A stretch of DNA of 64,000 bases, from assembly GCA_021413975.1 (NCBI GenBank), contig JAIOPJ010000054.1:310001-374000 (forward strand), given 5' to 3'. Within the stretch, counting starts at the first letter, position 1, and each line of letters starts with the position of its first letter. Below are positions 28,401 through 56,368 of this stretch, piece after piece. A program made the position numbers and the translations under genes. The notes under the pieces are model-generated. The model had not been told where the DNA came from, ran no database searches, and worked only from the letters and a program-made list of their open reading frames with translations. This DNA comes from Gemmatimonadota bacterium. GTDB taxonomy: Bacteria > Gemmatimonadota > Gemmatimonadetes > Gemmatimonadales > Gemmatimonadaceae.

Positions 28401-28645
28401 CGCAACTTGGCGACCGTGCGCGCTTCCTGCAGGAAGCGTCCGCGCAACTCGGCGTTCGTCGACATATCCCCGCCGATCACCTTGATCGCGACCGGCCGAT
28501 CGAGCGTGAGGTCGCGCGCCCGGAATACGCTCCCCATCCCGCCCCGGCCGAGAAGCCCTTCGATCGCGTACTGCCCGCCGAGCCGCGCCCGCAGCGTCTC
28601 GAGCAGCGGGTCGGGTGTCGGGTCCGGCCGGGGGAGGTCGGTCAC
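25421..28645 (-). CDS. Transmembrane Ser/Thr protein kinase with large C-terminal sensor/TPR-like region
   Basis: 1074 residues. Seen: Hanks-type kinase at about 26-290 with GRGGMGSVF glycine loop (33-41), Lys55, HRDVKPEN (148-154), DFG (168-170) and SPRYMSPE; all catalytic residues intact. One membrane helix at about 317-337 follows. The extracytoplasmic part first shows a domain with AVMPFEIQSSNRDIQWLRDG (found in many bacterial kinases and adenylate-cyclase-like regulators), then about 500 residues of helical repeats resembling TPR units with conserved Ala/Leu spacing. Known: such kinases are abundant in Gemmatimonadota and relatives, and their inputs are rarely known. GTG 28645 overlaps the agmatine deiminase stop (GTGA); the stop shares one base with the binding-protein ATG. 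Confidence 0.92.
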   Translation of the reverse strand: MTDLPRPDPTPDPLLETLRARLGGQYAIEGLLGRGGMGSVFRARDLTLDRPVAIKVIGGDMSTNAELRGRFLQEARTVAKLRHPHIVAVYSAGDADGILYFVMELVPGESLRDLLAREGTVQPARAERILHELALALDYAHANGIVHRDVKPENILLDRETGRAMLTDFGVARALEGDGRMTGTGMILGSPRYMSPEQATGDTTLDGRSDLYALALVGHEMFTGKAVVDAGNVAAMLVKHLTETPKPLADAAANVPEGVSTAIDRALMKDRDQRWATGREMAEVIGMAWTPHGGGVPARPGTQSGPAVLRAPFRRRAALVAAIVAVVLVGTSVALWWNRGGAPRGVDPRRSYAVMPFEIQSSNRDIQWLRDGAVNMLTLALSQWSDLTVADYERTMVLVRDAGLEEKRVDIDRALEIARRAGAWTVVTGTITTTADSMRVDARLYDVASGKPLNTESRAAAVGDDPRPLFDGLARYLLGVAGGSATETVDLAAATTTSLVAYRAYLEGVRALFSWRVAQADSLFQIAIRADSSFALAWHKRSLALGWGDAGGFAYVESSQRALELSSRLPARERALVKGQNALARGLRALAGGENGAAIMREAEENYRGLIAADSGVAEAWYGLGDALFHTPFNGDSSEASVERMTGSLQAFRKTLALDSTFHLAYSHLISMYQGLSLANSGVVLDGDRIRLVTDSAGVRAAGGTAGILAKQEQARAIGFDLARAWSRADQDATQPVKTLIQGFFGAGMPDSAIATIDRALSRPSLRTPELMLWSGVYQFYADDPRGVRTLLDVTRDNSAAALRKIPVNDRLSVLATALAAAGASGSGAEVERVKRLILSVDSVLPGSNEPFAPILEALAAGLRIATAGTVTGQDRGGLLGMIARVDRLPPGAQSQLKFGAIPVAYVAYLASGDTVFSSAVRRWSPQGSRFPEFDARDAVTRGDTAAARTIAATFPRADSVAKVRLGLAGLRTVLRAEIIAELGDPREAAAQYAAMHPSRFATAFVDPGFTVYVRTFAARARLYEQIGERERAITAWEEFLRRWADGDATTETARREARSALQRLRDQPTTKRP

Positions 28646-29757
28646 GCGTGCGCCCTTGCGCGGCCCTTGGCCGACGGCTGCTGCTGCGTGAGGCAGTGCA
28701 GCGTCCCGAGCCCCCACACCAGATCGACCGCATGGATCCCCACGACCTGACGCCCGGGCACCAACTCGGCGAGCGTGTTCATGGCGATCCGGTCGTTGGG
28801 GTCATTGAAGGTCGGCACGATCACGAGGCCGTTGGCCATGTAGAAGTTCGCATAACTCGCGGGGAGCCGCGTGCCGTCCATCACGACCGCCCGCGGGTAG
28901 GGGAGCGTCACCGTGCGGATCGGCTCGCCGCGCGCGTCGGTCGCTCCCCGGAGCCGCGCGAGGTTGTCGAGCGACCTCGCATGGTTCTCGTCCGCAGGGT
29001 ACTCCTCGTGCGCGAGCACCACCACGCCCGGTGCCACGAAGCGCGCGATGTCGTCCACATGCCCGTGAGTATCGTCCCCGACGCAGCCTTCGCCAAGCCA
29101 GATGGTCCGGGCGATCCCCAGCTCCTCGGCGAAGGTGCGCTCGTAGTCGGCGCGCGTGAACCCCCGGTTCCGCACCTGCACGTCGCTCAGCAACCACTCC
29201 TCGGTCACGAGCATCGTCCCCTGGCCGTCGGTCTCGATGCCGCCGCCCTCCAGCACGACGCGTCCCTCTCCATCGTGCCGTTCCGGCTGATGCAGTGCGA
29301 GCCCCGTGTGCTCGGCCACGAACGCGCCGATCAGCGCATCGGCCGCGAAGTTGTCGTACTTGGCCCAGGCGTTGAAGCCCCAGTTCACGAGCCGCACACT
29401 GCCGTCGCCGAGGTGCACGCCCGTGGGACCCGAGTCGCGCAGCCACACGCGATCGCTCGCGCACTGATGCAGGTGGACGCGCGACTGGCGCACCTCGTGC
29501 ATGCGGAGGCAGTGCCAGGCCTGCTCCTCGGTCGCCTCGTCGTTCACGAGGATGCGCACATGCTCGTGCTCGGCCAGCACGCGCGCGATCTCGGCGTACA
29601 CCCAGGGGATCGGCGCGAACTTACCCGGCCAGTCGGGCTCGTGGTGCGGCCACGAGATCCAGGTGGCGTCGTGTCGCTCCCACTCGGCGGGCCACCGCAC
29701 GCCGCCACCACCCGGTGCGACAGCGGCCACCGACGCGGTCGCGGCCTTCTTGCTCAC
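28642..29757 (-). CDS. aguA: Agmatine deiminase
   Basis: Hydrolyses agmatine to N-carbamoylputrescine and ammonia, the first step of a putrescine route from arginine. Seen: 371 residues of the guanidino-modifying fold with WPAEWERHDATWISWPH at the start, SDRVWLRDSGP, LEGGGIETDGQGTML, DTHGHVDDIARFV and the nucleophile Cys near the end in GLGTLHCLTQQQP. All family landmarks are present. The GTG start (29757) overlaps the aguB stop as GTGA; the longer upstream in-frame extension is antisense-type shadow of aguB. Arginine decarboxylase, which makes agmatine, is not in the window. Confidence 0.95.
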   Translation of the reverse strand: MSKKAATASVAAVAPGGGGVRWPAEWERHDATWISWPHHEPDWPGKFAPIPWVYAEIARVLAEHEHVRILVNDEATEEQAWHCLRMHEVRQSRVHLHQCASDRVWLRDSGPTGVHLGDGSVRLVNWGFNAWAKYDNFAADALIGAFVAEHTGLALHQPERHDGEGRVVLEGGGIETDGQGTMLVTEEWLLSDVQVRNRGFTRADYERTFAEELGIARTIWLGEGCVGDDTHGHVDDIARFVAPGVVVLAHEEYPADENHARSLDNLARLRGATDARGEPIRTVTLPYPRAVVMDGTRLPASYANFYMANGLVIVPTFNDPNDRIAMNTLAELVPGRQVVGIHAVDLVWGLGTLHCLTQQQPSAKGRARAHA

Positions 29758-30692
29758 GAACCGATCCAGCGATTGAGGATCGGGCCGTAGGCGTCCACCC
29801 GCCGGTCGCGCAGGAAGGGCCAGTTGCGGCGCGTGTACTCGATCAGCGCCGGGTCGCAGGTCGCGACGAGCGTCGCCTCGCCGGTCTCGGCCTGAGCCAT
29901 GTAGCGGCCGTACGGATCGACGATCATCGAGTGCCCGAAGAACTCGATCCCGCCGGTGCCCGCCTTGGCCTCGAAGCCCGTGCGATTGGGCGACGCCACG
30001 AAGACGCCGTTGGCGATCGCGTGCGCGCGCTGCGCCGTCCTCCAGGCGTCGACCTGGGCCGCTCCCCACTCGGCCTTCTCGGCCGGATGCCAGCCGATCG
30101 CGGTCGGATAGAACAGGATGTCGGCGCCGAGGAGCGACGTGATGCGCGCGCCCTCGGGGTACCACTGGTCCCGGCAGATGAGCACGCCGATCGTCGCGTA
30201 ACGCGTCTTCCAGACCATGAAGCCGCCCGCCTCGCCGTCGGGGCCGCGAGCGCCCTTCGGTTGCACAGACGACGTGGACTCGCCGGGCGCGAAATAGTAC
30301 TTCTCCTCGAACAGCGGGTCGTGCGGGATGTGCATCTTGCGGTAGACGCCGAGCAACTCTCCATCGGCATCGATCACGGCGGCGCTGTTGCGGTAGACCC
30401 CCGGACCCTGCCGCTCGTAGATCGGCACCACGAGCACCACCGCGAGTTCCTTCGCGACCGCCTGCAGGCGCGCGACCGTCGGTCCCGGCACCGGCTCGGC
30501 GATGTCGAAGTTCGCGGCATCGAGCGTCTTGCAGAAATAGGGCGCGTTGAAGAGTTCCTTCAGGCAGATCACCTGGGCGCCCTTGGAATGCGCAGCGCGG
30601 ATCCGCTCCTCGGTCGCGGCCAGCGTGGCGTCGGCCGTGGACTCGACGCCATCCTGGATGATGGCGACGGTGAAGGGAGGGCGAGTGGTCAT
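29754..30692 (-). CDS. aguB: N-carbamoylputrescine amidohydrolase (carbon-nitrogen hydrolase)
   Basis: Converts N-carbamoylputrescine to putrescine, CO2 and ammonia. Seen: 312 residues of the nitrilase superfamily with the catalytic triad Glu in CLKELFNAPYFC, Lys in YRKMHIPHDPLF and Cys in GVLICRDQWYPEGA. KYYFAPG and NRTGFE are also typical of AguB. Directly followed by aguA with a GTGA overlap, so the two pathway steps are made together. It starts 18 bases after the end of the glycerate kinase gene, continuing the same chain. Assignment to the agmatine pathway rests on both sequence and context. Confidence 0.95.
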   Translation of the reverse strand: MTTRPPFTVAIIQDGVESTADATLAATEERIRAAHSKGAQVICLKELFNAPYFCKTLDAANFDIAEPVPGPTVARLQAVAKELAVVLVVPIYERQGPGVYRNSAAVIDADGELLGVYRKMHIPHDPLFEEKYYFAPGESTSSVQPKGARGPDGEAGGFMVWKTRYATIGVLICRDQWYPEGARITSLLGADILFYPTAIGWHPAEKAEWGAAQVDAWRTAQRAHAIANGVFVASPNRTGFEAKAGTGGIEFFGHSMIVDPYGRYMAQAETGEATLVATCDPALIEYTRRNWPFLRDRRVDAYGPILNRWIGS

Positions 30693-30710
30693 GGGGACAA
30701 TTTCGCCCCC

Positions 30711-32018
30711 TTACACCCTCACCGCCACCACGATGTCCATCACGTTCGTTCCGGTGTCGGCCGAAGGGAGCAGCGCCCCCGCGGCCGCGAGCGCGGCATG
30801 CGCGTCGCACCGTCGGAGAGAACGTGCCGGACGTCCGTCGGCCGTCGCGCTCTCCCGCCAGCTCTCCCACGAGATCAGCGCCCCCGACGCCTCCGCGGGG
30901 CCGTCGCGACCGTCGGTCCCCGCGGCCAGGACCCACGTGCCCTCCGCCGCGAGGTCATCGAGCACCTCGGCAGCCGCGAGCGCGAGTTGCTGGCAACGAC
31001 CGCCCAGACCATGATCGTCGGGGAGCCGGACCGTGGTCTCTCCGCCCCAGGCGAGACACGCGCCCTTGGGCGCGCGGGCGAGTGCGTGGGCGATCACGCG
31101 CCCGGCGCCGGTCGCGTCGCCCTGCAGAGGCGTGAGCGACAGGAGCACCGGCTCGAATCCGGCCTCGGTCGCGGCAGCGGCCACGGCGTCGAGCGCAGCC
31201 GAGTTCCCGACCACGAACGGCTCCGCGACGTTGGCGAAGGCCGCATGATCGGGTTTCGGCGTCTCGGGGATCAGACCGGCCCGCATCGCGCCGAGTGCCG
31301 AGGCGACCGAGAGCGGGATCCGCACCGCCAGACCCGCCTCGCGCAGGATCCGCTCCACATGACGGGCCTCGAGCGGGTCGGGAGTCACCGGTCCGGACCC
31401 GATCATCGCCGGATCCTCGTTGGGCACGTCGGCGAGGAGGATCGGGAGCACGCGCGCACCGTGCAACGCTTCCGCGAGCCGTCCCGCTCCCCAGCGCGAG
31501 AAGCGTTTGCGCACCGCGTTGACGCGCGTGATCGGCACACCCGCGCCCAGCAGGAGCGCACCGAGTGCGGCGAGGTCGCCGGCCCGCACGCCGTCTATCG
31601 GAGCGCCCACGAGACTCGAGGTGCCGCCCGAGATGAGCACGAGCACCACGTCATCCTTGCCGATCCGGTCGGCGAGCGCGCCGAGCCGCTCGGAGGCCCG
31701 CGCCGACCGGGCGCCGGGCACCGGGTGGTCGCCCGCAAGCGTCTCCACGAGCGGGTGCGGGGGCACGCTCTCGGCCACGCCGACCACGAGTCCGCCGGCG
31801 ATCGGGAAGCCCGCGGCCTCACAATGCACGACGGCCGCCCCCGCCATGGCGGGAGCGGCCTTGCCGAGCGCGATGATCCAATGCGGCCGGTCGCGCCCGA
31901 CCTCGAGCGTCACCTCATGCGAGCGCAGGCCGTCGCGGACCACCCGGGCGGGATCGGCGGCCGCCAGCGCCGCCTCGTAGAACCCCCGCAGTGTCGCCGC
32001 GACGTCCGCGCGGTCCAT
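30711..32018 (-). CDS. Glycerate 2-kinase, MOFRL/DUF4147 family
   Basis: Phosphorylates D-glycerate to 2-phosphoglycerate; some homologues are called hydroxypyruvate reductase (TtuD). Seen: 435 residues with the N-terminal DUF4147 domain (IIALGKAAPAMAGAA, DHPVPG, VLISGGTSSL, NAVRKRFSRWGAGRLAEA) and the C-terminal MOFRL domain with ACLAWGGETTVRLP, GGRCQQLALAAA and AAGTDGRDGPAEASGA. All conserved blocks are in place. The ATG shares one base with the stop of the selenoprotein gene (TGATG), so it is second in the long minus-strand chain. No neighbouring glycerate or tartrate genes are seen to define its source of glycerate. Confidence 0.9.
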   Translation of the reverse strand: MDRADVAATLRGFYEAALAAADPARVVRDGLRSHEVTLEVGRDRPHWIIALGKAAPAMAGAAVVHCEAAGFPIAGGLVVGVAESVPPHPLVETLAGDHPVPGARSARASERLGALADRIGKDDVVLVLISGGTSSLVGAPIDGVRAGDLAALGALLLGAGVPITRVNAVRKRFSRWGAGRLAEALHGARVLPILLADVPNEDPAMIGSGPVTPDPLEARHVERILREAGLAVRIPLSVASALGAMRAGLIPETPKPDHAAFANVAEPFVVGNSAALDAVAAAATEAGFEPVLLSLTPLQGDATGAGRVIAHALARAPKGACLAWGGETTVRLPDDHGLGGRCQQLALAAAEVLDDLAAEGTWVLAAGTDGRDGPAEASGALISWESWRESATADGRPARSLRRCDAHAALAAAGALLPSADTGTNVMDIVVAVRV

Positions 32019-32587
32019 CAGCCTCCGCCGCTCGCCTTCTTCACCGCCTCGCCCAGCTCGGTGTAGGCCTCTGCCGAGAGTTCGCGGAACGGCCGCATGA
32101 TGTGCGCGATCCGCCCGTCGGGGCCGATCACGAAGACCACGCGCTTGAGGAAGTTCACGGCGGGGAACTTCACGTCGTAGAGCCCGCCGGTCACCGCGGC
32201 CGCGTCGCTGAGGAAGGTCACGGGGAAGCTCTTCTCCGCGGCCCAGCTCTGCTGCACGTCCACGGCATCGGTGCTGATGGCCAGCACCTTCACGCCGTTG
32301 CCGTTCTTGAAGATCGTGGCGTACTGATCACGGTACGCCTCCATTTGAGCCGTTCAGCCACCGGTCCTCGCCTTCGGGAAGAAGGCGAGGACGACGGTCT
32401 GCCCGCGCAGACCGCTGAGGGTGATCGGCGCGGGGCTTACGCCATCCTTCGTGGACGCCGGCAGGGTGAAGTCGGGGGCCATGTCGCCCACCTTCAACTC
32501 GCCGGTTGGGGCGGGGGCCTGTGCCATCGCGGGCTGCGCCAGCGCGAGGGCGACGAGGGCCGCCAGGAAACGGTTGGGGGTTCGCAT
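32018..32587 (-). CDS. Exported peroxiredoxin-family selenoprotein (UGA read as selenocysteine)
   Basis: Seen: 189 codons with a UGA at codon 78 (32354-32356). The frame is open on both sides: VVLAFFPKARTGG-UGA-TAQMEAYRDQY. In AhpC/TSA-type peroxiredoxins the residue at this position, in TGGCT, is the peroxidatic Cys, so TGC to TGA is exactly a Cys/Sec swap. The rest of the protein has no cysteine. A signal peptide (MRTPNRFLAALVALALAQPAMA, first ~22 residues, shown by its parts) indicates export. A SECIS-like hairpin follows the UGA. Known: selenocysteine peroxiredoxins exist in several bacteria. Inference: it reduces peroxides in the periplasm. The selA, selB, selC and selD genes must be elsewhere. 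First gene of the long chain. Automatic calls would split it into 32354-32587 and 32018-32344. Confidence 0.85.
32318..32339 (-). promoter_or_regulatory. Bacterial SECIS-like hairpin
   Basis: On the mRNA, GGCGUAC pairs perfectly with GUACGCC across an eight-base loop CGUGAUCA. The loop starts 22 nt after the UGA and its first G lies within the 16-37 nt window reported for bacterial SECIS elements; the loop contains the GU that SelB usually contacts. It lies inside codons 83-90 of the peroxiredoxin. Confidence 0.75.
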
Positions 32588-32679: not shown

Positions 32680-34155
32680 GTGCGGTCCATGAGAGTCGGC
32701 CTCGCGATCTGTTGCATGCTGCCTGCCCTGCTGGGTGCTCAGCCCCGCGCGCGATTCGACATCGAGCGTCTCGCCGACGGCGTGTACACGACGGTCCGGC
32801 GCGAGCCGGCGAGCCTCTTCTTCGAGCCGAACAGCGTCTTCATCATCGGCCCCCGCGACGTGATCGTGGTCGACGCGCAGTTCTCCCTCGAGACCACGCG
32901 TGAGGTGATCGCGGCGCTGCGCCGCCTCACCGACAAGCCGGTGCGCTGGGTGGTGAACACCCACGCGCACGACGACCACATCACGGGGAACCAGGCCTAC
33001 CGTGACGCGTATCCGGAGGTGCAGTTCATCGCGCATCGCGCGACGCGGGACACGATGGTCGGGGTCGGTGCGCAGAAGCGGGCCGAGTTCCTCGCCTCGC
33101 TGCCGGGGACGATCGGCTTCTTCCGGAAGCTGCTCGCCGACGGGAAGAGTCCGGACGGATCACCGATCACCGCCGAGGAGCGTGCGGGGTTCGCGAGCGA
33201 CTCGGTGCTCGGAACGCGCTTCCTCGCCGAGGCCCCGGGAGTGCATCTCGTTCCCGCGGACATCGTGGTCGACGACCGGATCGAGCTGCGGCAGGGCGGG
33301 CGTGTGATCGAACTCCGGCATCTCGGCGGCGGCCACAGCGCCGGCGACCTGGTGGTCTGGCTGCCGGCGGAGCGCATCGTCGCGGCGGGGGACCTCGTGG
33401 GTCTCCCGGTTCCGCTCGTGGGTTCGACCTCGCACCCCGCGGCCTTCGCCGACGCGCTCGTGCGCCTGCGGGGCCTCGGGGCGGCGGTGGTCGTGCCCGG
33501 ACATGGTCCCGTGCAGCGCGACGAGCGGCAGATCGTGGCCGTGGAGGAGATGCTCCGCGCGATCGTGTCCGGCGTGGAGCGCGGCGTGGCACGCGGCGAC
33601 TCGCTCGCGGCCGTACGTCGCACCGTCGACCTCACGCGCTGGCGAGATCGGTTCGCGGGGGAGTCGAAGCTCCAGCGGTTCGCGTTCGCGAACTACGTGG
33701 CCGACCCGGCCGTCGCAGCGGCCTTCGCCGACGCGACGGCGGCCTCGGCGGAGCACGAGGTGCGTGCCGTGGTGCAACGCCTGTTCGACGCCATGCGTGC
33801 CAAGGACACCGCCGCCATGCGCGCGCTCTTCGACCAGGACGCCAAGCTCGTCGGCATGCGGCCCGGCCGGCCCGCCGACGCGCCGGTGGTGCAGCGCCTC
33901 ACGGCGGCCGACTTCGCCGCGTTCGTCGCGCGCGACACGCGTGCCCCGTGGATCGAGCGCGCCTGGGACGCCGAGGTGCGCATCAGCGGTTCGCTCGCGA
34001 CGGTGTGGGCCGCCTACGACTTCCACTTCGGCGAGACCTTCAGCCACTGCGGCGTGGACGCGGTGCAACTGCTCCGCACCGCGCAGGGGTGGCGCATCAT
34101 GTCGATCGCCGACACGTTCGTCAGGGAGGGGTGCCCGCAGCGCCCGCCTCCCTGA
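32680..34155 (+). CDS. Secreted metallo-beta-lactamase-fold hydrolase fused to a SnoaL/NTF2-like domain
   Basis: 491 residues. Seen: a signal peptide (VRSMRVGLAICCMLPALLGA at 1-20), an MBL fold with the zinc motif HAHDDH (95-100), further ligands in GGGHSAGDLV, GDLVGLP and PGHGPVQ, and after about residue 340 a helical linker and an NTF2/SnoaL-like cone domain (VVQRLFDAMRAKDTAAM... TVWAAYDFHFGE). Known: the MBL fold covers lactamases, glyoxalases and lactonases; the NTF2-like domain binds small molecules. The fusion partner hints at a small hydrophobic substrate, not defined. Start: GTG 32680 sits 10 bases after GGAGAGG; ATG 32689 is close behind. Divergent from the selenoprotein gene, convergent with acnA. 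Confidence 0.85.
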   Translation: MRSMRVGLAICCMLPALLGAQPRARFDIERLADGVYTTVRREPASLFFEPNSVFIIGPRDVIVVDAQFSLETTREVIAALRRLTDKPVRWVVNTHAHDDHITGNQAYRDAYPEVQFIAHRATRDTMVGVGAQKRAEFLASLPGTIGFFRKLLADGKSPDGSPITAEERAGFASDSVLGTRFLAEAPGVHLVPADIVVDDRIELRQGGRVIELRHLGGGHSAGDLVVWLPAERIVAAGDLVGLPVPLVGSTSHPAAFADALVRLRGLGAAVVVPGHGPVQRDERQIVAVEEMLRAIVSGVERGVARGDSLAAVRRTVDLTRWRDRFAGESKLQRFAFANYVADPAVAAAFADATAASAEHEVRAVVQRLFDAMRAKDTAAMRALFDQDAKLVGMRPGRPADAPVVQRLTAADFAAFVARDTRAPWIERAWDAEVRISGSLATVWAAYDFHFGETFSHCGVDAVQLLRTAQGWRIMSIADTFVREGCPQRPPP

Positions 34156-55983: not shown

Positions 55984-56368
55984 GTGCGAGGTTCGGCAGT
56001 GAGGTGTGCGCTGAATCACGCGGACGAGGTGTCAAGGACACGAACAGTGACAAGGAATGTGTCATGGTCGCATCGCATTCGCGGAACCCCCACCACAATC
56101 ACGTCGTGATAGTCATCTAAGAACATGTCATACAACGACTTACAAAGAATATCGAGTGGCACGCTTCTGGCATATTGATCATTCGAACGCGCAGAACGCC
56201 ACACCGACAAGAGCACACCCATCGCGAGGTGGGGTCGCAAAGCCAGGAGTCTCGGATCCTCGAGATGGTCCGGTCGCCGAACGTGGATCGCACGCAGAAG
56301 GAATGGTTCCTTCGCTCGGCACACCCGCTGCATGTCGGTTGGTCACTCCCCCTGCGCGGGAGGATACG
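55984..56368. promoter_or_regulatory. Long gene-free, AT-richer region with regulatory signals
   Basis: No gene is evident in about 400 bases between acs and the STAS gene. Part of it (about 56104-56195) is notably richer in A and T than the rest of the window. It has an inverted repeat TGACA-N7-TGTCA at 56048-56064 and a sigma-54-like site at 56157-56172. Weak ORFs here look like noise. The STAS gene's ribosome site ends the region. This may carry the STAS promoter and a regulatory leader. Confidence 0.5.
56157..56172 (+). promoter_or_regulatory. Sigma-54-like -24/-12 promoter
   Basis: TGGCAC, five bases, TGGCA keeps the diagnostic GG-N10-GC spacing of RpoN promoters; only one base of the -12 block differs from TTGCA. 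Predicted start near 56184 would leave a leader of about 185 nt before the STAS gene. No enhancer-binding regulator gene is in the window. Confidence 0.45.

Follow-up and report, generated by a model that had tools for sequence, protein, structure and literature searches.

Peroxiredoxins of the AhpE type work without a resolving cysteine and are cytoplasmic. The TxxU selenocysteine peroxiredoxins have been listed as a selenoprotein family (PMC13188914, PMC9312934), and the PxxxTxxU motif has been termed highly conserved and crucial (PMC13188914). The bSECIS model places the apical loop 16–37 nt after the UGA, with a G within the first two loop positions (PMC13188914). Because TxxU selenocysteine peroxiredoxins are already listed, the gene examined here (prx) would be a selenoprotein of a known kind. 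It lies in the window, the whole 64-kb stretch of DNA that we analyzed, which comes from a Gemmatimonadota metagenome-assembled genome of 3.08 Mb (56 contigs, 92.7% complete). Three features define the predicted gene:

32018–32587, minus strand: prx, predicted exported selenocysteine peroxiredoxin, 189 aa plus stop, with UGA as codon 78
32354–32356, minus strand: in-frame UGA, read as Sec78, at the peroxidatic position of PKARTGGU
32522–32587, minus strand: putative Sec-type signal peptide, residues 1–22, with an AMA/QA site, by sequence inspection

From its start ATG at 32587 to its stop TGA at 32020–32018, prx read through the UGA yields 189 residues that match PF00578 (AhpC-TSA) with 95.8 bits across residues 33–162 (cut-off 26). 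The original prediction had placed a UGA on the peroxidatic position of an AhpC/TSA-like protein, and its coordinates and frame proved correct, as did the position of the codon; the strand, which it left unstated, is minus. Its expectation that annotation would report a truncated protein and a fragment was also borne out, as ordinary ORF calling splits the gene into 77 and 108 aa. The read-through protein contains, as had been claimed, no cysteine besides the UGA residue, which is thus the sole candidate redox centre. Scans for sigma-70 promoters and terminators around prx gave no match.

The open frame across the UGA is weak proof when taken alone, since the GC-rich window holds 128 TGA codons with >70 open codons on both sides, and we dropped it as stand-alone evidence for selenocysteine. 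That the prx UGA is more than chance is argued instead by homologues that carry only TGA or TGC at this codon and by a hairpin conserved only behind the TGA forms. A search of 84,980 species genomes (GTDB) returned 371 relatives, and the best 80 of these 371, nearly all titled Gemmatimonadota, were kept and combined with the window protein (n = 81). Within this set, codon 78 is TGA in 74 and TGC in seven sequences, with no other codon found, so that the Cys/Sec alternation for which the original prediction had proposed an alignment is evident. Its concern that resequencing might reveal a cysteine codon can be set aside, because 73 further sequences carry the same UGA. Counts of inside TGA codons were re-examined, as matches that reach residue 190 include the true stop; the second prx copy of genome G183 proved on this check to have TGC. 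On the tree, three label changes account for the seven Cys forms, which all fall in one half of it; the tree is a quick one with a midpoint root, so the direction of Sec/Cys change is unproved.

Several loci near this alternation deserve mention in their own right. Tandem prx copies, tens of bases apart, occur in a related genus (L116–L120, L122–L124, L126, and L128), with a Sec and a Cys copy side by side, while the tandem at L128 consists of two Sec copies. One Cys form (L069) lies on a contig labelled Candidatus Kuenenia with an aconitase neighbour as in Gemmatimonadota, and this contig is probably mis-binned or mislabelled.

Downstream of the UGA, comparison across homologues points to a selenocysteine insertion element:

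32318–32339, minus strand: bSECIS hairpin GGCGUAC-CGUGAUCA-GUACGCC, loop 32332–32325, starting 21 nt after the UGA

The loop CGUGAUCA opens with C-G-U, which puts a G in second place, and both this G and the 21-nt distance agree with the bSECIS model. The Sec forms read CAA ATG GAR GCG TAC CGT GAT CAG TAC GCN 3' of the UGA with hardly any synonymous substitution; in the Cys forms this stretch is variable. Codon identity among Sec forms is thus 0.91 in codons 81–90 versus 0.50 elsewhere (p = 2e-6), and among Cys forms 0.59 versus 0.51 (p = 0.11). Six of the seven stem pairs are kept in all 74 Sec sequences, the outermost pair being lost in 10, and when only the 41 distinct sequences are counted, pairing holds in 96.5% of stem cells. 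Compensatory changes have replaced G-C by A-U in three sequences (L042, L062, and L043) and by C-G in a fourth (L047); these four double-sided changes compare with 0.37 expected by shuffles, none of 2000 shuffles reaching four. When the partner strand is slid by 1–3 nt, pairing falls to 10–43%. The hairpin is absent from the Cys forms, and median hairpin energies are −11.8 kcal/mol in Sec forms versus −0.6 to −3.4 kcal/mol in Cys forms. In the window sequence itself, the hairpin energy does not stand out from synonymous shuffles (333 of 5000 equally stable), and folding 68 nt of this one sequence, UGA included, gives another minimum-energy structure whose stability is not significant (z = −0.87). 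The hairpin is clear, then, only by comparison across homologues and not from a single-sequence fold.

The machinery that such an element would serve, for which the original prediction had suggested a genome search, is present in full (selA, selB, selC, and selD). A tRNA-Sec with anticodon UCA (76.3 bits) and SelD (387.4 bits) share contig C34, SelB (320.9 bits) lies on contig C16 and SelA (532.2 bits) on contig C7, all four scoring above curated cut-offs. The active site of SelD itself contains an in-frame TGA (GAG-U-ASK, L019:918–920), and the loop of a SECIS-like hairpin behind it (GGUC-CGGGU-GACC) begins 16 nt past the UGA, within the bSECIS model; SelD genes with an in-frame UGA are known elsewhere. 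Although the sel genes sit on other contigs of this assembly, the finding of tRNA-Sec in 10 more genomes of the window's genus argues against contamination.

Across the Gemmatimonadaceae, presence of tRNA-Sec follows the codon. When genomes listed in both tables are scored by their best prx copy (G105 by its second copy), tRNA-Sec is present in 58 of 60 UGA-form genomes and absent from 11 of 12 Cys-form genomes, the exceptions being two UGA forms without a tRNA-Sec match (G031 and G236) and one Cys form with one (G081). Within the window's genus, three genomes without tRNA-Sec (G073, G087, and G129) have TGC or TGT at the prx codon. Taken together, these comparisons show, at the level of sequence, decoding of the UGA as selenocysteine, a SECIS, Sec/Cys alternation, membership of the peroxiredoxin family, and the lack of any cysteine besides the UGA residue.

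Three further residues bear on what the protein may do:

32375–32377, minus strand: Pro71 of PxxxTxxU, present here and replaced in 47 of 81 homologues
32363–32365, minus strand: Thr75 of PxxxTxxU
32141–32143, minus strand: Arg149, invariant, presumed catalytic Arg

PxxxTxxU is complete in the window protein (P71, T75, and U78). Among the homologues, the proline is found in 34 of 81, with Tyr, Phe, or others in its place in the rest, so that the Pro-less members may act on another substrate or have another activity. Conservation holds for T75, G77, T79, and R149, the last of which lines up with the KR of archaeal peroxiredoxins. An AlphaFold2 model (mean pLDDT 89) returned AhpC- and BCP-type peroxiredoxins as the top solved structures in Foldseek. 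Extra cysteines in homologues are confined to the first 22 residues, bar one C-terminal case (L090). With no resolving Cys in the chain, a one-Sec mechanism that depends on an external thiol is to be expected.

The protein would be exported to the periplasm, as its N-terminus is hydrophobic (MRTPNRFLAALVALALAQPAMA followed by QA); a simple scan of the homologues found a hydrophobic N-terminus in 76 of 81 and an AxA-like site in 60 of 81. The export signal of the original prediction is thus upheld by sequence inspection only, while the weight it gave to periplasmic selenium chemistry was overstated: selenoproteins outside the cytoplasm, such as exported formate dehydrogenases and NiFeSe hydrogenases, are not new as such.

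The gene next to prx is a neighbour for which we claim no part in the mechanism:

30711–32018, minus strand: MOFRL/DUF4147 glycerate kinase, overlapping the prx stop by TGATG

By simple ORF clustering, 21 of 80 loci have a MOFRL glycerate kinase after prx. On the minus strand of the window (28642–32587), prx and this kinase are succeeded by a nitrilase-type amidohydrolase and then by a probable agmatine deiminase, and about 20 Gemmatimonadota loci show parts of this arrangement. In 12 of 80 loci, a DsbD-type membrane protein (DsbD_TM) is convergent on the 3' side of prx, and in all six of these 12 that were read, an exported CxxC TlpA-like thioredoxin lies between the two. Rather than running in the same direction as prx, this pair converges on it, and in the window the pair does not lie beside prx; in the window genome it occurs elsewhere (contig C21), with a thioredoxin 56% identical. 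Gene neighbourhood thus suggests the DsbD/TlpA-like couple as a candidate electron donor to prx. Elsewhere in the window, a c-di-GMP-I riboswitch (Rfam RF01051, 55.4 bits) lies at 56202–56281 on the plus strand, and ARAGORN called a tRNA-Val at 32844–32942 on the minus strand, inside a metallo-beta-lactamase-fold gene on the other strand; not being listed by Rfam, this tRNA call is probably a false positive.

We consider it highly probable that prx encodes an exported BCP/PrxQ/AhpE-like peroxiredoxin with selenocysteine as its sole redox residue, which would reduce hydroperoxides and be recycled by an outside thiol. Its export, peroxidase activity, reductant, and physiological role we infer as follows. 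SelB would bind the hairpin that lies immediately 3' of UGA78, delivering Sec-tRNA-Sec so that selenocysteine is inserted and translation does not stop, and the signal peptide would direct the chain to the periplasm. There the selenolate, activated by Thr75 and Arg149, would attack hydroperoxides, as family and fold suggest. The resulting selenenic acid would then need an outside thiol as reductant, for which the exported TlpA-like thioredoxin fed by the DsbD-type membrane protein is the best candidate. Judging from known selenium chemistry, selenium may raise the rate and shield the lone catalytic residue from over-oxidation (PMC8533274).

Decoding of UGA78 as selenocysteine would also allow a protein that is exported but is not chiefly a hydroperoxide reductase, serving instead as a redox relay or selenol oxidoreductase for some other substrate. 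Loss of the canonical proline in 47 of 81 homologues, the lack of a resolving residue, and the thiol-disulfide module adjoining prx in 12 loci all fit such a role. We nevertheless regard it as unlikely, given that nearly all members keep Thr75 and Arg149, which are the other two residues of the peroxiredoxin active site, that the window member retains Pro71, and that a lone selenocysteine is incapable of disulfide exchange by itself. It is very improbable that UGA78 encodes another residue, for instance Cys, read by a tRNA-Cys-like species with a UCA anticodon, or Trp, under an altered code: the non-UGA homologues do have Cys, but the genome holds a full tRNA-Sec (76 bits) together with SelA, SelB, and a SelD of the Sec type, the SECIS hairpin is conserved in UGA forms only, and prx itself ends in TGA, so that TGA is also a stop and a reassigned code is ruled out. 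A pseudogene, a sequencing error, or two separate short genes, as the two fragments seen by ORF callers might suggest, is scarcely credible and already refuted by the homologues, with the same TGA in 73 other sequences, an open frame and strong protein conservation across it, and a covarying hairpin.

Beyond the single gene, the peroxiredoxin reading extends, more tentatively, to a possible phylum-wide pattern, in which an exported Sec-only subfamily that has mostly lost the proline teams up with a DsbD/TlpA-type couple as a dedicated selenium peroxidase pathway in the periplasm, and Sec and Cys have been exchanged repeatedly as the Sec machinery was kept or lost. For Gemmatimonadota, which are common in soils and lakes, our data indicate wide use of selenocysteine in a predicted exported antioxidant enzyme whose gene is split by ordinary ORF calling. 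That one genus holds the same gene with UGA where tRNA-Sec is present and with TGC or TGT where it is absent offers a natural test case for selenium retention versus loss, and a mature peroxiredoxin with one selenium and no cysteine would be a clean system for asking what selenocysteine does that cysteine cannot.

Among curated models, no NCBIfam model reached its cut-off with the window protein. The best, PRK09437 (BCP thiol peroxidase), scored 68.1 bits against a cut-off of 140, and the PrxU equivalog NF040737 55.1 bits against 270. Our search found no paper on selenocysteine peroxiredoxins in Gemmatimonadota; this search was incomplete, and metagenomic surveys may include members of the family while leaving the phylum unnamed. 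With PrxU of Eubacterium acidaminophilum (NF040737; TxxU, PF00578/COG1225), prx shares the AhpC/TSA fold, selenocysteine by UGA and, in the window member, PxxxTxxU, but the window family has a predicted export signal, lacks cysteine in its mature chain, and has lost the proline in most relatives. BCP/PrxQ (PRK09437) is the best sequence model, matched by all 36 aligned members; prx nonetheless falls below its cut-off, and differs in having selenocysteine for the peroxidatic cysteine, a predicted export signal, and no resolving cysteine. AhpE-type 1-Cys peroxiredoxins are matched in sequence through the Rv2238c structures (E about 3e-10), with cysteine in AhpE where prx has selenocysteine. The UxxC, UGC, and UxxS Prx-like selenoproteins likewise combine an AhpC/TSA-type fold with selenocysteine (PMC13188914, PMC9312934), yet theirs lies in other motifs, whereas prx has TxxUT and no cysteine. 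Set against these families, and with export novel only if earlier selenocysteine peroxiredoxins are not exported, what appears new in prx is a predicted exported, lone-selenium form that is spread through a phylum and has lost the canonical proline in most of its members.
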